A DNA stretch of 64,000 nt from Bifidobacterium moraviense (GTDB lineage: Bacteria > Actinomycetota > Actinomycetes > Actinomycetales > Bifidobacteriaceae). The first letter of the stretch is position 1. Each line of letters opens with the position of its first letter. Shown here piece after piece: positions 748-58,210 of the stretch. The stretch spans positions 310,001 to 374,000 of the forward strand of contig NZ_JAAIIH010000001.1 in assembly GCF_012932365.1 (NCBI RefSeq), given 5' to 3'. The notes beneath the pieces were generated by a model that worked only from the letters and a program-made list of their open reading frames with translations, made no database searches and was not told the DNA's origin. The position numbers were made by a program, and so were the translations under genes.

Positions 748-3051
748 ATGTCCGTTCTGACTTCCGTTTCCGGCTTCCCGCGCATCGGCCAGAACCGTGA
801 GCTCAAGAAGATCATCGAAGGCTATTGGAAGGGCGCCAACGACATCGACGCCGTGCGCGCCACCGCCAAGGAGCTGCGCGCCAGGCACTGGAAGCTCCAG
901 CAGGCGGCGGGCATCGACCTGATCCCGAGCAACGACTTCAGCTACTACGACCAGATGCTGGACACCGCGATCCTGCTCAACGTGATCCCGCAGCGCTACC
1001 AGCGCCTGTCCCTCGACGAGGAGGGCACGCTGTTCGCCATGGCCCGCGGCTATCAGGGCGAGGCCGGCGACGTGACCGCGCTGCCGATGAAGAAGTGGTT
1101 CACCACCAACTACCACTACCTCGTGCCCGAGTTCGACGCCGCCACCGAGGTGAGGCTCAACTCCACCAAGGCGTTCGACGAGTTCGCGGAGGCCAAGGAG
1201 CTGGGCATCCTCACCAAGCCGGTGTTCATCGGCCCGTACACGTTCCTCAAGCTGGCGCGCAACTCCGAGGCGCAGGAGCTGGAGCTGGACAAGGGCCTGG
1301 TGTCCGCCGTGGCCGACGTGTACGCGCAGGTGCTCGCGAAGTTCATCGAGCTCGGCGCCGAATGGGTGCAGCTCGACGAGCCGTATCTGGTGCTGGACAA
1401 GGAGCCCGGCGACGTGGAGCTCTTCAAGAGCCTGTACGCCAAGATCCTGCCGGCGCGCAAGGGCGCCGTCAAGGTGCTGCTCAACACGTACTTCGGCCAC
1501 ATCGCCGACGTGTACGAGACCGTCAACCTCCTCGGCTTCGACGGCGTCGGCCTCGACCTCAACGAGGGACGCGACGAGAACCTGGACGCCGTGGATCGCT
1601 ACGGCGTGAACTCCGCCACCACGCTGTTCGCCGGCGTGGTCAACGGCCGCAACATCTGGCGCAACAACTACGCCGTGAGCCTGGGCCTCGTGGACGCGCT
1701 GAAGGAGAAGACCCCCAACGTGGCCGTCTCCACCGCCAGCTCCCTGCTGCACGTGCCGTTCAGCACCGAGGGCGAGACCGGCATCGCCGCCGAGCAGCTC
1801 AAGCACTTCGCGTTCGCCGTGGAGAAGCTCGGCGAGCTCCGGGAGATCGCCGACCTGGCCGGCAAGGACGATGCCGAGCTCAAGTCCGATCCCGCGCTGG
1901 CCGCCAACCAGACGCTGTTCGACGGCACTCGCGTGGCCGCCGATCCGGCCGTGGCCGCCCGCGTGGCCGGCCTGACCGACGAGGACTTCGTGCGCCAGCC
2001 CGCCCGCGCCGAGCGTCAGAAGCTCCAGCGCGAGGCCCTCGGCCTGCCGCTGCTGCCCACCACCACCATCGGCTCCTTCCCGCAGACCCGCGAGATCCGC
2101 GCCGAGCGCGCGAAGCTGCGCAAGGGCGAGATCACCAAGGCCGAGTACGACGCGTTCATCAAGGCGCAGATCGACGCCTGCATCAGGCATCAGGAGGAGA
2201 TCGGCCTCGACGTGCTGGTGCACGGCGAGTTCGAGCGCAACGACATGGTCGAGTACTTCGGCCAGAACCTCAACGGCTTCCTGTTCACCAAGAACGCCTG
2301 GGTGCAGTCCTACGGCACCCGCTGCGTGAAGCCCCCGATCGTGTGGGGCGACGTGTCGCGCGCCAAGCCGATCACCGTGGAGTGGTCCGCCTACGCGCAG
2401 TCGAAGACCGACCACGTCATGAAGGGCATGCTCACCGGCCCGGTCACCATCCTCAACTGGTCCTGGCCGCGCGAGGACATCACCCACGAGCAGCAGACCC
2501 AGCAGCTCGCCCTCGCCATCCGCGACGAGGTGCTCGACCTCGAGTCCGCCGGCATCAGGGTCATCCAGATCGACGAGGCCGCGCTGCGCGAGAAGCTGCC
2601 GCTCAGGAAGTCCGACTGGCACGTCAAGTACCTCGACTGGGCCGTGCCCGCGTTCCGCCTGGTGCACTCCGCCGTGAAGCCCACCACGCAGATCCACACG
2701 CACATGTGCTACTCCGAGTTCAACGACATCATCCGCGACATCGACGCGATGGACGCCGACGTGATCTCCTTCGAGGCGTCCCGCGGCGACCTCGTGGTGC
2801 TCGACGCGATCCACGAGGCGCACTTCGAGACCGAGGCCGGCCCCGGCGTGTACGACATCCACTCGCCGCGCATCCCCTCCGAGCAGGAGATCGAGGAGCG
2901 CATCGGCGAGATCCTCGCGAAGATGGACGTCGAGAAGGTCTGGATCAACCCCGACTGCGGTCTGAAGACCCGCGGCGACGCCGAGACCTGGCCGAGCCTC
3001 GAGCACATGGTGGCCGCCGCCAGGGCCGTGCGCGCCAGGCTCGCCAAGTAA
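748..3051 (+). CDS. metE: Cobalamin-independent methionine synthase
   Basis: MetE transfers the methyl group of 5-methyltetrahydropteroyl-tri-glutamate to homocysteine, the last step of methionine synthesis. The 767-residue length is normal for the family. It opens with the N-terminal [13 protein letters not shown] signature. The C-terminal catalytic barrel begins around residue 430 ([10 protein letters not shown]). Zinc ligands are visible as His652 and Cys654 in [10 protein letters not shown] and Cys737 in NPDCGLKTR. The ATG at 748 is preceded by CAGGAGGTAGC. metF, which makes its methyl donor, follows after 129 bases that contain a hairpin, so the two may be only partly cotranscribed. Confidence 0.98.
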
Positions 3052-3101
3052 GCCTGACCGCCGGACCCGGAACGACCGATCCGCGCTCCGGAGCGCGGAC
3101 C

Positions 3102-3139
3102 CGCCGAAGGCTCCTCCCACGCCGGGGGAGCCTTCGGCG
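3102..3139 (+). terminator. Hairpin between metE and metF
   Basis: A 13-base perfect inverted repeat (CGCCGAAGGCTCC at 3102-3114 pairing with 3127-3139) encloses a 12-base loop. No T-run follows, so it may attenuate or process the transcript rather than terminate it fully. It lies 40 bases upstream of metF. Confidence 0.55.
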
Positions 3140-3180
3140 TACGAGGACCCCTCACCAGCCCCATCCAGCAAAGGACACCC

Positions 3181-4026
3181 ATGACCACGCCCATGTTCTC
3201 CCTCGAAGTCTTCCCGCCCAAGCGCAACGCGCCCGTGGGCACCATCTACGACACCCTCGACGGCCTCGAGGGCCTGCACCCCGACTTCATCTCCGTCACC
3301 TACGGCCACGGCACCCAGTCCGACCGCACCGCCACCGCGCGCATCGCCAACACCATCCGCACCGAGTACGGCATCCCCACCGTGGCGCACCTGACCGCTT
3401 TGTACTCGGACCACGAGGTGATCGACCAGGCGCTCGACATGTTCGACAAGGCCGGCGTGACCGCCGTGCTCGCCCTGCGCGGCGACGAGCTGCCCGACCA
3501 CGAGCGCGTGGGCGTGTTCCCGCACGCCAGCGACCTGGTCGCATACATCCGCGAACGCCGCCCCGACATGAAGGTGTTCGGCGCCTGCTACCCGGAGGGA
3601 CACTACGAGTCCGCGTCGCTGGACGACGACATCGCCAACCTCAAGGTCAAGGTGGACGCGGGCGTGACGCACCTCATCTCCCAGCTGTTCTACGACAACG
3701 ACGACTTCTACCGCTTCCTCGACAAGGCACGCGCCGCCGGCATCGACGTGCCGATCGAGGCGGGCATCATGCCGGTGCGCGGCGCCAAGTCGGTGCGCCG
3801 CATGGCCGAGCGCAACGCGTCGCGCATCCCCGCTCGCCTCGCCCGCCTGCTCGACCGCTGGGAGGGCAACGCCGAGGCGCTCAGGGCCGCCGGCATCAAC
3901 TACGCGTCCGAGCAGATCACCGACCTGGTCTCGCACGGTGTGGACGGCATCCACCTGTACACCATGAACCATCCCGGTTCGACGCGCCGCATCTGGTCCA
4001 ACGTGGAGCCGCTCTTCACCCGCTGA
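3181..4026 (+). CDS. metF: Methylenetetrahydrofolate reductase
   Basis: MetF reduces 5,10-methylene-THF to 5-methyl-THF with a flavin cofactor, supplying the methyl group used by MetE just upstream. The 281-residue protein is a single TIM barrel. The family N-terminus FSLEVFPPKRNAP holds the conserved glutamate. SVTYGHGTQSDRT and the later THLISQLFYDNDDFYRFL segment are typical of the family. The ATG at 3181 follows CAAAGGACACCC. It lacks the C-terminal regulatory domain of eukaryotic enzymes, as expected for a bacterium. Context with metE strongly supports the call. Confidence 0.97.
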   Translation: MTTPMFSLEVFPPKRNAPVGTIYDTLDGLEGLHPDFISVTYGHGTQSDRTATARIANTIRTEYGIPTVAHLTALYSDHEVIDQALDMFDKAGVTAVLALRGDELPDHERVGVFPHASDLVAYIRERRPDMKVFGACYPEGHYESASLDDDIANLKVKVDAGVTHLISQLFYDNDDFYRFLDKARAAGIDVPIEAGIMPVRGAKSVRRMAERNASRIPARLARLLDRWEGNAEALRAAGINYASEQITDLVSHGVDGIHLYTMNHPGSTRRIWSNVEPLFTR

Positions 4027-4050: not shown

Positions 4051-7000
4051 ATGCCTCAGAATCCCCAGGGCGCGGTCAGCGCGCGCGAACTCATCCATGC
4101 CGGCATACTCGACCTCGACGAGGCGAAGCGGCAGATCGGGCTGCTCTCCGAGGCGGGGCTCACCCGCGACAGGCTCGCGGTGCTGCTCTCCGCCCTCGGG
4201 CACGCGTACGACCCGGACGTGGCCCTGCGCAACCTGCAGAGCATCGTGGCGGCGCTGCCGAGCCATCGCACCACGCTCGACGAGCTCGCCCCCACCGAGG
4301 ACGACCAGCGCCGACTCATCGCCGTGCTCGGCGCCTCGGACGAGTTGGGCAAGCTCATGCGCATCCGCCCTACGCTGGTGGCCGCCGCGGCCGCGGACCC
4401 GTGCCGCAGCAACCGGCGCAACGCCGCGGAACGCCGAGCGCTCATCCTCGAGGCGATCGGCGCGGACCCGTCCTCCGCGGCCCCTGTGGCCGGCCTCGAC
4501 CTGGCCGACGCCACCACGCAGCTGCGCCGCACGTACCGCAAGCACCTCGCCGCCATCATGGCCGCGGACGTGACCGCCGAGGACCCGCTGTACATGCAGC
4601 CGGCCATCAGCCGCATGCTCTCCGACTTGGCCGACGCGGCACTCGAGGGCGCCCTGGCCATCGCGCGCCACGAGGTCGACGGCAGCGAGGACTGCCGCTT
4701 CGCCGTCATCGGCATGGGCAAGCTGGGCGCACAGGAGCTCAACTACGTCTCCGACGTGGACCTCATCTACGTGGTGGAGCCCGCGAACCCGGACGTGGAC
4801 CGCCAGCGCCTCATCCGCGTGGGCACCAAGATGGGCACCATGCTGCAGCGCGTCTGCCAGTCCGTCATCATGGGCTGCGCCGAACCGGCCCTGTGGCAGA
4901 TCGACGGCGGGCTGCGCCCCGAAGGCAAGGACGGCCCGCTGGTGCGCACGCTCGACTCGCATCAGGGCTACTACGAGCAGTGGGCGGAAAGCTGGGAGTT
5001 CCAGGCGCTGCTCAAGGCGCGCCCCGTGGCCGGCGACCAGGAGCTCGGCCGCGCCTACTACGAGATGACGCGCCCGTTCGTCTGGTCCGCGTCCACCCGC
5101 AAGAACTTCGTGTACGACTGCCAGCAGATGCGCAAGCGCGTGGAGGACCTCATCCCCGCGCCGCTCAAGGACCGCGAGATCAAGCTCGGCCGCGGAGGCC
5201 TGCGCGACGTGGAGTTCACCGTCCAGATGCTGCAGCTCGTGCACGGGCGCACCGACGAGTCGCTGCACACCACGTCCACGCTGCAGTCGCTGCAGGCGCT
5301 GTCCGACGGCGGCTACGTCTCGCGCAAGCAGGCGGTGAGGCTCTCGCACGACTACCGGTTCGAGCGCGTGCTGGAGCACCGCCAGCAGATGTGGGCCCTG
5401 AAGCGCACCCACCTGTTCCCGGACCTCGGCGCCGGCAGCCTCGGCGGCATCGAACGCAAGCGCCAGATCGACAGGGACTCCCTCGCTCGCAACGCCGAGC
5501 TGCGCAGGCTCTCCCGCGCGCTCGGCAAGCACCCCGAGGAGCTCGTGGAGGAGTTCGACGCGGTGCGCCGCGAGGTGCGCAAGCTGCATCAGGACATCTA
5601 CTTCCGCCCCATGCTGCCCATCGCCGCGCAGGCCGGGTCCGACGAGGTGACGCTGAGCTCCGACGCGGCGCGCACACGCTTCGCATCCATCGGATTCGCC
5701 GATCCGGACAGCGCCATGCGCCACGTGGCCGCCCTGACCAGCGGCGTCTCCCGCGCGGCCAAGATCAACCGCATCATCCTGCCCGCGGTGCTCTCGTGGC
5801 TCGGCAACGGCCAGAACCCGGACATGGGCCTGCTCGGCTGGCGCAAGCTCGAGGAGAAATTCGGCACCGAAAGCGAATATCTCGGGTTCCTGCGCGACTC
5901 GCCGTCCGCCGCGCAGCGCCTGTGCCACGTGCTGTCCAACTCGCGCTTCCTCGGCGACGCGCTGACCAAGTCGGTCGAGTCGATCACATGGCTCGGCAAC
6001 GACGACGACCTCGCCGTGCGCACGCGCGGGAGCCTCGACGTGCAGTGCCGCGCCACGCTGGAGCGCAACGAGGGCAGCATCAACGACTTCGCCACGTCGC
6101 TGCGAGCCATGCGCCGCCACGAGATCGAACGCATCGGGCTGGCGTGGATGAGCGGCGTGATCGACGACGCCGCTAGCCTGAAGGGCATGACCGACGTGTA
6201 CGACGCGGTGATCCAGGCCTCGCTCGACTGGGGGCTGCGCCATCAGGTTGCGCAGCGTGGACTGGACGCGCCGGCCGCCTCGATCGCCGTCATCGCCATG
6301 GGGCGCTACGGCGGCGGCGAGGTGAACTTCAGCTCCGACGCCGACGCGATCCTCGTCTACCGTCCCGCCGACGGTGCCGACGATCACGAGGCGGGCGTGT
6401 TCGCCAAGGCCGTGGTGGACGACATGCGCCAGATCCTCGCCGGGCCCACGTCCGTGGAGCAGAAGATCGAACTCGATCTGGACCTGCGTCCGGAAGGCAA
6501 GAACGGGCCGATCGTGCGCTCGTACGCCTCCTGCCGCGAATACTACGCGTCATGGGCCAGCACGTGGGAGCACCAGGCGCTGCTGCGCGCCCGGTTCGCC
6601 GCCGGCGACGCCGTGCTCGGCCATGACTTCCTCACCGAGATCGCCGACCCGCTGCGCTATTCGGACGAGCCGCTCACCGCCGCCCAGCTCGCGGACATCC
6701 GCAAGCTCAAGGCGCGCATGGAGGCCGAACGACTGCCGCGCGGCGTGCGGCGCGACCGCCACCTGAAGCTCGGCAAGGGCGGGCTCTCGGACGTGGAGTG
6801 GACCGTGCAGCTGCTGCAGCTGCGGCACGCGGGGGAGCACGAGGAGCTGCGCGTGTGCGGCACGCTCGATGCGCTCGAACGGCTGGTCGCGCTGCATCTC
6901 ATCGACGTGGGCGACGCGAGGATCCTCGAACAGACCTGGCGCATGTGCACGGCCGCGCGCAACGGCAACTACCTGTGGAGCGGACGCGCCAACCAGGCGG

Positions 7001-7233: not shown

Positions 7234-7259
7234 CGCGAACGCCGGCTCAGGACATCCGC

Positions 7260-7462
7260 GCGGAATGAGCGGATCCAGTCCTTATGGCGCGCGGAATGAG
7301 CGGATCTGGTTCCGTACGGCCCCGATTCGGTCCGCCCGGGACTGGATCCGCTCATTTTGCGATGTGCGGAGACTGGAACCGCTCATTCCGCGGTGTGCGG
7401 AGACTGGAACCGCTCATTCCGCGGTGTGCGGAGACTGGAACCGCTCATTCCGCAGTGTGCGG
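7260..7462. repeat. Cluster of short alternating repeats with a 31-bp tandem array
   Basis: Between glnE and pyrB lie six copies of a roughly 22-base element with consensus GCGGAATGAGCGGATCCAGT. Copies at 7260-7281 and 7291-7313 point one way; copies at 7338-7360, 7371-7391, 7402-7422 and 7433-7453 are reverse complements. The last three sit in a perfect or near-perfect 31-base tandem array (7363-7393, 7394-7424, 7425-7455). The same family reappears at 19311-19484. There are no unique spacers, so this is not CRISPR. The adjoining stretch 7463-7565 shows no gene. Confidence 0.85.
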
Positions 7463-10691: not shown

Positions 10692-11645
10692 ATGGACCGC
10701 TTGATCGAGGCGATCGAGGCGAAGCAGAACCCCAGCGTCGTCGGACTCGACCCCACCGAGGCGCTCGTGCCCCCGCAGGTGGTGGCGAGCTTCGCCGACG
10801 AGGTGCGCGGCGAAGTCGAAAGCGACGAGGAGGCGCCCGCGGCGCAGCTCGCCGTCGCGTTCTACGAATTCAACCGCGCCGTCATCGACGCCGTGGCCGA
10901 CATCGTGCCCGCCGTCAAGCCGCAGATCGCCATGTACGAGGCGCTCGGCACCAGCGGCGTCGACGTGTACACGATGACCTGCGAGTACGCGCGCGAACAG
11001 GGCCTGTACGTGCTCGGCGACATCAAGCGCGGCGACATCGGCTCCACGGCCGCCGCCTACGCGCATCACCTGAGCGGCGTGGGGGAGTACGACCCGTGGC
11101 ACGAGGACGCCGTCACCGTCAACCCGTACCTCGGCACCGACGGCATCACCCCGTTCGTCGACGCCGCGGCCGCCGCTGACAAGGACATCTTCGCGCTCGT
11201 GCGCACCTCCAACCCGTCCTCCAGCGAGATCCAGGAACTCGAGCTGGCCGACGGCGGCAAGGTGTACGAGCACGTCGCCGACCTCGTGGAGCGCTGGGGC
11301 GAATCCACGCGCGGCAAGCGCGGCTACTCGCGCGTCGGCGCCGTCGTGGGCGCCACGCATCCCGAGGAGGGCAGGGCGCTGCGCGAGCGCATGCCGCACA
11401 CGTTCTTCCTCGTGCCCGGCTACGGCGCGCAGGGCGGCACGGCGGCCGACGTGGCCGGCATGTTCGATCAGGACGGCTCCGGCGCGATCGTCAACTCGTC
11501 GCGCGGCATCATCGGCGCTTGGAAGAAGACCGGATCGTACGGCGAGGCCATGAGCGCGGACGAGGCGCTGGACCTCGTCGCGGAATCGGCGCGCGCCGCC
11601 GCGATCGACATGCGCGACAGCCTGCGCGTGGCCGTGTACCGCTGA
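10692..11645 (+). CDS. pyrF: Orotidine 5'-phosphate decarboxylase
   Basis: PyrF decarboxylates OMP to UMP, the final step of the pathway. The 317-residue length and sequence match the long actinobacterial type 2 family. SVVGLDP is at the N-terminus and the catalytic DIKRGDIGSTA motif carries the Lys/Asp network. VGAVVGATHPEE and LVPGYGAQGG form the phosphate-binding end. The ATG at 10692 follows GGAAAGGAACCG. It lies 78 bases after pyrC within the same operon. Confidence 0.96.
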   Translation: MDRLIEAIEAKQNPSVVGLDPTEALVPPQVVASFADEVRGEVESDEEAPAAQLAVAFYEFNRAVIDAVADIVPAVKPQIAMYEALGTSGVDVYTMTCEYAREQGLYVLGDIKRGDIGSTAAAYAHHLSGVGEYDPWHEDAVTVNPYLGTDGITPFVDAAAAADKDIFALVRTSNPSSSEIQELELADGGKVYEHVADLVERWGESTRGKRGYSRVGAVVGATHPEEGRALRERMPHTFFLVPGYGAQGGTAADVAGMFDQDGSGAIVNSSRGIIGAWKKTGSYGEAMSADEALDLVAESARAAAIDMRDSLRVAVYR

Positions 11646-19310: not shown

Positions 19311-19484
19311 GGACCGGATCCGCTCAATACGCGCGGAACCTCATGGCGTTCCTCGCGGAATGAGCGGATCCGGTTCCCGTCTGACGTGGATTGAGCGGAG
19401 CCAGTCCCGCACTAGGCGAATCCCGGTTCCCGCGAACCGGATCCGCTCAATCCGCCGCGCGCGGGACGTGATCCGCTCAGTGCG
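19311..19484. repeat. Second cluster of the GAGCGGATCC repeat family
   Basis: Five copies of the element seen at 7260-7462 lie here: 19311-19332 (reverse), 19355-19377 (forward), 19386-19408 (forward), 19434-19455 (reverse) and a degenerate 19463-19484 (reverse). Shared core is GAGCGGATCC(G/A)GTTCC or its complement. The last copy overlaps the stop codon of the ClC gene. The stretch 19088-19310 shows no gene. Confidence 0.8.
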
Positions 19485-54638: not shown

Positions 54639-55691
54639 CTAGAACACGAGCATGCACAGCCTGGCCATGGCGTAGCTGATGATGCCGCAGCCGGGGAACG
54701 TGAACACCCAGGTGAGCATCATGTCGCGCACCACGCCGAAGTTGATGGCGGACAGGCGTCGCACGGCGCCGACGCCCATGATGGCGCTGGTCTTGGTGTG
54801 CGTGGTGGACACGGGGATGCCGAGCACCGTCATGACGAGCAGGCACAGGGCGCTGGACAGGTCGGCGGAGAAGCCCTGGTACTTCTCGAGATGCACCATG
54901 TCCTGCCCCACGGACTTGATGATGCGCTCGCCGCCCACGGACGTGCCCACGCCCATGATGACGCTGCACAGCAGCATGAGCCACACGGGGATGACCACGC
55001 CGGCCACGCTGGACTGGCCGTTGCAGAACGCCATTCCCAGGAACAGCACGCCGATGAACTTCTGGCCGTCCTGCGCGCCGTGCATGAAGCTCATGCAGGC
55101 GGCGCCGGCGATCTGCGCGTACTGGAAGAACCCGTTGGTGCGCCTGCGGTCGAACCCGGCGCACACGAGCGTCACCGCCTTGCACACGATCCAGCCCATG
55201 GCGAAGCCGATCAGCAGGCTCGCGGCCAGACCGTACAGGACCTTGACCCACTCCCCCATGTTGATGCCGCCGATGCCGCCCTGGATGGCGATGGCCGCGC
55301 CGGACAGGCCGGCGATGAGGCTGTGGCTCTCCGACGTGGGGATGCCGAGCAGCGACGCGCCCACGGAATAGACCACGATGGAGAACAGCGCCGCGCACAG
55401 GGCGATGAGCGCCGCGTTCGTGTCTCCGCCGAAGTCGACCATGTTGCTGATCGTGGAGGCCACCGACGCGTTGAGCTGCGTCATGATGAGCACGCCGAGG
55501 AAGTTGAACACGGCCGCCATGACGACCGCGGGACGCACCCGCATGCACCGCGTGGTCACGCAGGTGGCGATGGCGTTGGGCGCGTCGGTCCAGCCGTTGA
55601 CGAAGATCACGCCCAGCGTCAGCAATGTCGTGATCGCCAGTGCGGGGCTGGAAAGCACCTGCTGGAGGAACGTCGTCAGGGACACGTCCAC
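54639..55691 (-). CDS. pit: PiT family inorganic phosphate transporter
   Basis: The 350-residue membrane protein has the PiT duplicated signature: FVNGWTDAPNAIATCVTTRC near residue 30 and SFMHGAQDGQKFIGVLFLGM in the second half. About ten hydrophobic segments are visible, with IPVSTTHTKTSAIMGVGAVRR before the end. It imports phosphate, probably with protons or sodium. A TACAAT box (55737-55742) lies upstream. DUF47 follows directly in the same operon. Confidence 0.94.
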   Translation of the reverse strand: MDVSLTTFLQQVLSSPALAITTLLTLGVIFVNGWTDAPNAIATCVTTRCMRVRPAVVMAAVFNFLGVLIMTQLNASVASTISNMVDFGGDTNAALIALCAALFSIVVYSVGASLLGIPTSESHSLIAGLSGAAIAIQGGIGGINMGEWVKVLYGLAASLLIGFAMGWIVCKAVTLVCAGFDRRRTNGFFQYAQIAGAACMSFMHGAQDGQKFIGVLFLGMAFCNGQSSVAGVVIPVWLMLLCSVIMGVGTSVGGERIIKSVGQDMVHLEKYQGFSADLSSALCLLVMTVLGIPVSTTHTKTSAIMGVGAVRRLSAINFGVVRDMMLTWVFTFPGCGIISYAMARLCMLVF

Positions 55692-56074
55692 GTGAAGTCA
55701 CCTTCTTCTTCGAGGGGTCGGTAATCCGTCACGCCGATTGTAGCCGATGACTACGTAGTTTTTGACGTTCTGCCGTATCGTGTCGCCGCGTCCACGCCGC
55801 ATCCGCCCTGAGCCCGCACCGCGCCCAAGCGCTCCGCCGGACGCGCACATACCGGACGGAACGCCGCACATACCGGGCTCAAAAGGACGAAATCCGCGAT
55901 TCCAAGCGCCAAATGGACGCCCCGGCGGGGGTTTGGTACTTGGAATCGCGGATTTCGTCCGTTTCGGCCCGTATTTCGGCACGTATGTCGGGGTGCATCG
56001 ACCCGTACCGCGACCCGCACGCCCAGCCTGCATCGTCGGCAGGCATCGCGCGCGGGCCGCCACGTACGACGCCG
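55692..56074. repeat. Intergenic inverted-repeat element between cmk-der and pit
   Basis: This 380-base gap contains a 22-base perfect inverted repeat (55885-55906 with 55939-55960, starting GGACGAAATCCGCGATTCC). The loop of 32 bases itself folds (CCAAA...TTTGG, GCCCCGGC). Outside, GCACATACCGG occurs twice (near 55845 and 55866) and appears in imperfect inverted form on the right (near 55979). The whole imperfect repeat is about 130 bases. No gene is present. It may be a MITE-like insertion or a large terminator for cmk-der. Confidence 0.7.
55737..55742 (-). promoter_or_regulatory. Candidate -10 box of the pit promoter
   Basis: TACAAT on the minus strand, 46 bases before the pit start codon, fits a -10 element. 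The -35 at normal spacing (TCAAAA/GTCAAA) is poor. A phosphate-responsive activator could compensate; this is inference. Confidence 0.4.
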
Positions 56075-58210
56075 CTACCGGCGCTTCTTCTTCTCGCGGA
56101 TGTTCACCGAGATCTGGATCGGCGTGCCCTCGAAGCCGAACTCCTCGCGCAGCGAGCGCTCGAGGAACCGGCGGTAGCCGTGCTCGAGGAAGCCGGTCGC
56201 GAAGATCACGAAGCGCGGAGGACGGTTCGACGCCTGCGTGGCGAACAGGATGCGCGGCTGCTTGCCGCCCCTGAGCGGATGCGGATGCTCGCTCTGGATG
56301 CGGCCGAGGAATGCGTTGAGCTTGCCGGTGGGCACGCGCTGGTCCCACGACTCGAGCGCCTGGCGCATCGCGTTCGCCAGACGGTTCGTGTGCCAGCCGG
56401 TCTTGGCCGACAGGTTGACGCGCTGCGCCCACGTGACGCGTTCGAACTCGGTCTTCCACAGGCGTTCGAGGCGCTGCTTGTCGAACTCGTCCATGGCGTC
56501 CCACTTGTTGAACACCAGCACGATGGCGCGGCCCGCGTCCACGGCCTGACTCATGACCTTGAGGTCCTGATCGGAGACGGGCTGGGAGGCGTCGAACAGC
56601 ACGAGGGCCAGCTCGGCGCGCTCGAGCGCGGCGGTGGTGCGCAGCGATGAGTAGTATTCGGCGCCCGAGAGCTTGTGCAGTCGGCGCTTGATGCCGGCGG
56701 TGTCGATGAACAGCCAGTCCTCGCCGTCGATGTCGATGATCTCGTCGACCGGGTCGCGCGTCGTGCCCGCCAGATCGTTGACCACGGCGCGCTCCTCGCG
56801 CGCCAGCTGGTTGAGCAGCGACGACTTGCCGACGTTCGGGCGGCCGATGAGCGCCACGCGGCGCAGGCCGGTCGGCGTGAGCGTGCCGGAGCGCCTGTCG
56901 GCGGCGTCGAGCTTCCTCATCGCCTCGTCGAGCAGGTCGCCCACGCCGCGCCCGTGCATGGCGGAGATCGGGTACGGCTCGCCCAGGCCCAGCTTCCAGA
57001 ACTCGGCGGCGAGGTACTCGCTCGCGCCGTCGTCGACCTTGTTCACAGCCAGCGTGACCGGCTTGCCGCTGGCGCGCAGCATCCTCACGATGCGCTCGTC
57101 ACTGGCGGTCAGGCCCACCTGGCCGTCCACCACGAGCAGCACCGCGTCGGCCAGGCGCACGGCCACCTCGGCCTGGTTGGCGATCGCGGAGTCGATGCCC
57201 TCCACGTCGGTCTCCCAGCCGCCGGTGTCGACGAGCTTGAAGTCCTGTCCGGCCCATTCCGCGTCGTAGCTGATGCGGTCGCGCGTCACGCCCGGAGTGT
57301 CCTCCACCACGGCGGCGCGGCGGCGCAGGATGCGGTTGACCAGCGTGGACTTGCCCACGTTCGGACGGCCCACCACGGCCAGCACGCCCACGTTGCGCGT
57401 GGCGTCGGCCTCGTCGGAGCCGAAGTCGCCGCGCCCCTCGATGAGCGCCTCGTCGGCCTCGTCCAGATCGTAGCCCTCGAGGTTGGCGGCGTACCGCTCG
57501 TACGCCTGCTCCTCCATGGCGTCCTCGACGATGCGGCACATCGTCGCGACGGTCTCGTCGAGCGTCATGTCGGAGTTGTCGAGCGTGATCACGCCGTCCG
57601 CCGCAGAGGTGAAGTTCGTGACCTTCGAGTCCTGCGCGTCGCGCTTCGCCACGTCGTCGGCGCCCACGCCGGCCTCGGACGAGGCCTGTCCGGCGCGGCG
57701 GGCGGCGCGCACCTCCTCGCGGGCGGTGAGCAGCACGCGCACCTCGGCCTCGGGCGCCACCACGGTGGTGATGTCGCGGCCCTCGGCCACGATGCCCGCG
57801 CCCTCGGAGTACGAGTCGGCCGCGGACTCGCGCGCGATGTACGCGCGCTGCGCGGCGATGAGGATGCTGCGCACGGGAAGGACGCCCGAGACCACGGAGA
57901 CGTGCGACGACACCTCGGCCGATCGGATCGCCTCGGAGATGTCCTCGCCGTCGCAGAACACGCCGGGCGCGTCCGGCGCCACGGCGATGTCGAAGTGGTC
58001 GTCGGTGAAGAACGCGCCCACCTCGGTGATGATGCGCTGCTCGTCGGGGGACGCGGCGTCCAGGTCGACGCCCCGCCTCAGGCACCACCAGGCGCACGCG
58101 CGGTACATGGCGCCCGTGTCGAGGTAGGCGAGGCCGTAGCGGCGCGCGATCTCGCGCGACACGGTGGACTTGCCGACGCCGGCGGGCCCGTCGATGGCGA
58201 CCGTGATCAC
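56075..58210 (-). CDS. cmk-der: Cytidylate kinase / GTPase Der fusion
   Basis: The 711-residue protein joins CMP kinase (residues 1 to about 240; Walker [47 protein letters not shown]) to Der/EngA, a ribosome-assembly GTPase. Der has two G domains, [15 protein letters not shown] near 277 and [15 protein letters not shown] near 460, with NKVDDG and NKWDAM guanine-specificity motifs, and a C-terminal KH-like domain. The fusion is common in actinobacteria. Its ATG overlaps the rluB stop (ATGA), so they are coupled. Confidence 0.97.

Follow-up and report, generated by a model that had tools for sequence, protein, structure and literature searches.

The gap between a phosphate permease gene and a cmk-der fusion gene in Bifidobacterium moraviense (genome G000) contains a large inverted repeat, and the question is what kind of element this hairpin represents. 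The original prediction, made from the 64,000-nucleotide stretch of DNA analyzed herein (“the window”), described perfect 22-base arms and a loop that folds again, and considered the feature to be more than a terminator needs and possibly a repeat of the mobile type. Direct reading confirms the perfectly complementary arms (left arm, GGACGAAATCCGCGATTCCAAG), which are enclosed by 40-nt arms at positions 55874-55913 and 55932-55971 that are 88% complementary (Table 1). The RNA fold of positions 55870-55975 reaches -70.3 kcal/mol, whereas shuffled sequences average -36.3 (z -9.65; none of 200 folds as well), and the loop does form further structure of its own. Because this loop is asymmetric, copies of the hairpin have an orientation.

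Table 1. Features of the hairpin region in window coordinates
Feature	Position	Strand	Basis
Palindromic repeat element	55868-55977	+	98-bp core 55874-55971 plus 6 AT-rich bases per side; 25 aligned copies and the AT content across their edges
Left perfect arm, 22 bases	55885-55906	+	Read directly; within the 40-nt inverted repeat
Right perfect arm, 22 bases	55939-55960	+	Read directly; within the 40-nt inverted repeat
Structured asymmetric loop (GGACG...GCGGGGG)	55907-55938	+	Fold; conserved alignment columns
Phosphate permease gene (PHO4/Pit), neighbor	54639-55691	-	Pfam PF01384, E 4e-79; context only
cmk-der fusion gene, neighbor	56075-58210	-	Pfam Cytidylate_kin and MMR_HSR1; stop 104 bp from core; context only

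The hairpin is a member of a repeat family. A 151-bp query produced 26 matches in its own genome, both strands counted. We built a covariance model from 25 copies (alignment A1, which excludes six partial copies and four further full copies from Bifidobacterium avesanii, genome G018), and this model matches positions 55867-55978 of the window on both strands (G000:C1:365867-365978). Searches with the model revealed 12 full copies plus a truncated one in B. moraviense and 17 full copies at distinct sites in B. avesanii, which is the only one of 59 relatives to yield many copies in a DNA search. The hairpin is thus not the single-copy sequence that the original prediction had set against a mobile-type repeat. 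Additional copies of approximately 122 bp with similar ends are present in other species, for example in genomes G064, G021, G016, G078, G069, and G026.

The borders of the element are well defined. The core is exactly 98 bp long in 24 of the 25 aligned copies of the two species, whose mean pairwise identity is 82%, and conservation stops abruptly approximately 6 bases beyond this core on both sides. This delimits an element of about 110 bp with AT-rich ends (consensus AAWTTACGGGC and GCCCGTAAWTT), rather than the symmetry of about 130 bases that had been proposed. Likewise, the duplicated flanks noted earlier do not bracket the element. The sequence CGCACATACCGG occurs at 55844-55855 and 55865-55876, the second overlapping the left edge of the element, and because both copies lie to the left they do not constitute a target-site duplication.

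Two loci carry unusual arrangements of copies. At L038, the truncated copy (3286-3367; G000:C2:18785-18866) has an internal deletion and lies near a full copy at 4156-4253, in a segment common to B. avesanii. At L045 of B. avesanii (G018:C8), hairpins at 2990-3254 and 11166-11430 are 98% identical and lie 8.2 kb apart. An identical degenerate partial copy follows both of them, suggestive of a segmental duplication.

The position of the hairpin, 104 bp downstream of cmk-der, and its strong fold could indicate a structured RNA or a bidirectional terminator, in which case the repeats would be 3′-end modules kept for their hairpins. Alignment A1 provides some support for conserved pairing: 94.7% of cells are paired compared to 92.6%, and the covariation score is 0.110 compared to 0.077, both values being higher than in any of the 500 column shuffles or any slid control. 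Moreover, 24 cells are changed on both sides versus 14.6 in shuffles. However, the number of pairs with change on both sides shows no excess (5 versus 5.6 in shuffles), and no Rfam family matches at its gathering score, the sub-threshold matches to a microRNA and a Brucella sRNA being judged to be chance. There is also no T-tract or terminator-like site within 55874-55971 on either strand, and the sole terminator-like match in 55600-56200 is at 56070. According to heuristic gene calls for 24 copies, 10 are in co-directional, 4 in convergent, and 3 in divergent gaps, whereas 5 overlap a predicted open reading frame and 2 are unplaced. Based on the lack of a T-tract and on the copies in divergent gaps, we reject an intrinsic terminator. 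A kept RNA or terminator module would also leave the association with a nuclease gene described below unexplained, and we consider it extremely improbable. The multiple copies, the majority of them intergenic by these gene calls, instead agree with the proposal of a mobile-type repeat.

The original prediction suggested a genome search for copies with target-site duplications. Copies were found, but among 25 of them no target-site duplication signal rises above that of re-paired flanks, although at a mean identity of 82% such a signal could have been lost. None of the compared B. avesanii loci presents an empty site with a clean border. This genome is without the copy of locus L034, where divergence of the intergenic DNA prevents an insertion from being delimited; only a short remnant aligns at L033, and one L038 site is rearranged. 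Among 11 genomes read, adjacency of the pit and cmk-der genes with a hairpin between them occurs only in B. moraviense and B. avesanii.

The main finding lies outside the window, and is the pairing of these palindromes with a dedicated nuclease gene. Several hairpin copies occur in pairs approximately 1.2-1.5 kb apart. In both B. moraviense and B. avesanii, one such pair encloses a 318-330-codon gene that neighbors rpmA and obgE (G000:C8:273-1265, locus L039, in the former), and in B. avesanii and its relatives the rpmA-obgE gap contains only this gene and the hairpins. The gene product is 57-77% identical across species, and hairpins are present on both sides of the gene in all 10 species for which the fetched loci included it, with a hairpin-gene distance of up to 0.9 kb on one side in G097. 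Inspection of the flanks revealed that rpmA and/or obgE adjoin the gene in 9 of the 20 species with a close gene, and not in G030, G097, or the other nine.

The presence of the hairpin is strongly associated with the presence of this gene. Among 112 genomes of the genus, a close protein (E below 1e-90) is encoded in 20, a hairpin match is present in 16, and both occur in 14 (P 1.7e-11, uncorrected for shared ancestry). The two hairpin-positive exceptions are G124, which has a fragment of the gene, and G005, which has two weak hairpin matches without a close gene. Conversely, G020, G110, G106, G074, G024, and G012 have the gene and no match to the hairpin model, and carry different palindromes at the gene. 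A separate observation concerns locus L171 of G005, where tandem palindromes of another set lie upstream of the phosphate permease gene.

Scanned members of the bracketed protein family have no NCBIfam match and only sub-threshold Pfam matches, among them AbiEi_4, and the Y1 transposase models of Pfam do not match the bracketed protein. In contrast, PADLOC profiles for AbiEi match its N-terminal half (best E 9e-10). For the AF2 model of the protein (pLDDT 92.6, pTM 0.88), Foldseek alone returned no match at E<=0.001. In a second structural comparison, in which Z 7 to 8 is typical of models lacking a clear match, residues 202-320 superpose on the homing endonuclease I-Bth0305I (3r3p; Z 10.9, rmsd 2.9 Å over 95 residues), residues 200-314 on Vsr (1cw0; Z 9.4), and residues 2-197 on AbiEi (6y8q; Z 9.9, with a high rmsd of 6.8 Å over 179 residues). 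We consider these predicted fold matches, at Z 9-11, to be good, if not overwhelming. Because a profile search against PDB sequences had no hits, the fold relations rest on the AF2 model.

The conserved residues agree with this assignment. Ten positions are invariant in 52 sequences (G204, E205, Q223, R237, D239, E253, D255, G256, K259, and R281; alignment A2, from which L116, interrupted by a stop within the aligned region, and the fragment L132 were excluded). In our reading of the model, these residues sit on the helix and strands expected for a PD-(D/E)XK active site, and from that layout we take E205, D239, E253, and D255 to be the catalytic acidic residues. Given the fold matches, the invariant residues, and their placement, the protein joins an AbiEi-like DNA-binding half to a probably active nuclease half. 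The modeled folds assign both halves positively, to AbiEi and Vsr, rather than to an HUH/Y1 enzyme.

The arrangement is general. For each gene, the 800 bp on its upstream side were searched against the 800 bp on its downstream side with blastn, and a repeat was counted at E<=1e-8. In Bifidobacterium, including paralogues down to approximately 30% identity, a flank repeat was detected at 40 of the 52 testable loci and not at the other 12 at this threshold; loci within any one genus are not independent. A phylum search yielded a match in 25 of 296 genomes, and the protein also occurs in one record of the plasmid collection, that of Collinsella. Outside the genus (loci of the phylum search and one Collinsella record), flank repeats were detected at 18 of 29 testable loci and not at the other 11; the own-genome locus included in the phylum-set test has none. 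Three loci were too short for the test (L110 and L114 in Bifidobacterium, L220 in the phylum set), and the flank match at L234 directly adjoins the gene and may include coding sequence. As controls, none of 104 open reading frames of 700-1300 bp, drawn from 20 arbitrary 20-kb regions in the set genomes as well as the window, has a flank repeat, and random window positions gave 2 of 200 at E<=1e-8. When repeats were folded, 30 of the 40 tested gave z below -3 (simple block shuffle).

The repeats differ from one protein lineage to another. Of 28 gene pairs with at least 65% protein identity, 17 have similar palindromes, versus 2 of 713 pairs below this value; the palindromes change with the protein lineage and are mostly unrelated between lineages. 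In the source genome itself, five of the six other AbiEi-Vsr family genes also have flank repeats. Positions 7259-7392 and 19354-19479 of the window are copies of a second, unrelated palindrome family, and arrays of that family flank another AbiEi-Vsr gene (G000:C12, locus L274). Long palindrome arrays rather than single repeats are likewise found on both sides of the AbiEi-Vsr genes at L134, L137, L138, L139, and L275.

Palindromes of other lineages are dispersed as well in three further cases that were checked. In G280, a 62-bp palindrome is present at 28 sites (from 52 matches), and the two sites most similar to the query (100% and 98%) flank the gene. A 0.9-Mb record of Collinsella aerofaciens carries its palindrome at 15 places, and the L124 palindrome has copies at several sites in G087, G098, and G062.

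One locus departs from this pattern. In G020 (L112, gene at 1504-2445), a 66% identical protein occupies the same rpmA-obgE site and has an unrelated palindrome on both sides. It looks as though palindromes could be replaced in place, and this case weakens a simple history of one protein with one palindrome.

These data bear on the classical miniature element (MITE) that had been suggested originally. Like bacterial MITEs, the repeats are short, multi-copy, and dispersed, with terminal inverted repeats and defined ends, and an unseen transposase of the DDE or HUH type might mobilize them, with the AbiEi-Vsr gene as a passenger between two copies. However, the 25 copies, averaging 82% identity, lack the target-site duplication signal of such elements, and the bracketed gene encodes an AbiEi-Vsr protein and no recognizable IS transposase. 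A passenger would also not explain why, in other lineages and genera, genes of this protein family lie between copies of palindromes unrelated to these. A MITE of this kind therefore seems highly improbable.

Another interpretation is that chromosomal palindromes act as self markers or decoys that control or sequester a nuclease of a defense or addiction system, and that they spread by ordinary duplication and recombination. The AbiEi profiles do come from a defense library (PADLOC), and the nuclease half is Vsr-like. Yet neither a palindrome-free target nor a link to phages was seen: phage records do not hold the protein. Moreover, plain duplication fails to account for short elements that are dispersed without their flanks. 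We regard this arrangement as very unlikely.

A related possibility is that the palindromes are operators bound by an AbiEi-like regulator at its own and at scattered loci, with their spread owing nothing to its nuclease. The palindromes do lie near the gene, and AbiEi is described as repressing its own promoter by binding inverted repeats (PMC3985639). In contrast, both flanks of the gene carry palindromes, in some cases long arrays of them, and copies occur in convergent as well as divergent gaps. In addition, sharp-bordered elements of approximately 110 bp exceed what an operator needs, and the residues of the nuclease half are invariant. An operator function alone is thus rather unlikely.

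We favor, as a reasonably likely explanation, that the hairpin is a dispersed copy of the palindrome family of a two-part, REPtron-like system in which the AbiEi-Vsr protein promotes the spread of the palindromes. The observations on which this is based are the dispersed copies, the bracketing of the gene, the recurrence across Actinomycetota, the lineage-specific palindromes, and the conserved nuclease residues. Because AbiEi binds inverted repeats, the second half resembles a homing-type nuclease, and the gene lies between dispersed palindromes, we propose a model of palindrome recognition and copying. The AbiEi half would bind the palindrome, and the nuclease half would cut at or beside it, perhaps in the form of a duplex, a cruciform, or a single-stranded hairpin. 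Repair or strand transfer may then create copies of the palindrome at new sites, most of them intergenic, with the gene for the most part inherited in place. With a single locus across several species and palindromes in multiple copies, the main-clade gene would in this respect resemble that of a domesticated, non-mobile enzyme. Counting against the proposed system are the absence of a target-site duplication signal and of clean empty sites, the loci without flank repeats, G020 and G005, and the high rmsd of the AbiEi match.

To our knowledge, REP sequences with RAYT enzymes are the only recognized pairing of a palindrome with an enzyme. The likenesses to these REPtrons, as they are described in PMC3116915, PMC3733652, and PMC8266576, include dispersed and mostly intergenic palindromes that bracket the gene for a DNA-processing enzyme, repeats that are specific to a gene lineage, and an enzyme gene that is largely stationary. 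RAYT has been proposed to recognize and copy REPINs (PMC3116915, PMC8266576). The present palindromes differ in length (approximately 60-124 bp versus 20-40 bp for REP units) and have no GTAG foot, and the enzyme is an AbiEi-Vsr fusion instead of an HUH/Y1 transposase of the IS200/IS605-like type. By analogy, the same logic as in REPtrons would be executed by an unrelated enzyme.

The relation to other systems is more limited. The N-terminal half shares the AbiEi winged-helix fold and profile matches with AbiE type IV toxin-antitoxin systems, in which AbiEi is reported to repress its promoter through inverted repeats (PMC3985639). Here, however, this half is fused to a nuclease, no AbiEii nucleotidyltransferase toxin gene adjoins at the loci read, and the palindromes lie on both sides of the gene and are dispersed. 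Similarly, residues 200-320 are predicted to share the fold of the Vsr mismatch nuclease and I-Bth0305I (EDxHD), but are joined to an AbiEi half and associated with palindromic repeats, and the loci read place the gene neither in an intron nor beside a cytosine methyltransferase. CGTC-tagged REPs, which are mainly found in Alphaproteobacteria, are alike in being palindromic repeats with no transposase linked to them in the account of PMC3733652, according to which REPs have been linked to no enzymes other than tyrosine transposases and the CGTC REPs lack a dedicated one. Given a bracketed gene that is not of the HUH type, no GTAG foot, no AbiEii, and no target-site duplication seen, although old copies could have lost it, we place the system in none of the REPtron, AbiE, or MITE classes. 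In the open PMC literature, from which subscription papers are mostly absent, we found no link of AbiEi, DUF559, or Vsr proteins to palindromic repeats.

A broader proposal, which could equally prove right or wrong, is that Actinomycetota possess a phylum-wide class of repeat-nuclease systems that is convergent with REP/RAYT and uses a homing-type nuclease unrelated to HUH enzymes. Genomes would hold several co-diverging pairs of protein and palindrome, with each protein replicating its palindromes, and relatives of the Vsr/DUF559 type might mobilize other orphan repeats such as the CGTC REPs.

The origin and spread of bacterial palindromic repeats that lack a transposase is an open question, for which AbiEi-Vsr proteins provide a second candidate enzyme family, unrelated to RAYT. 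The dozens of protein and palindrome pairs in bifidobacteria, Collinsella, and other actinobacteria allow direct tests of the specificity of binding and cleavage. The proposed system would also assign a function to a protein family whose scanned members have no NCBIfam model and only sub-threshold Pfam matches, and would account for strong intergenic hairpins, such as the one described herein, that are otherwise liable to be annotated as terminators or RNAs.
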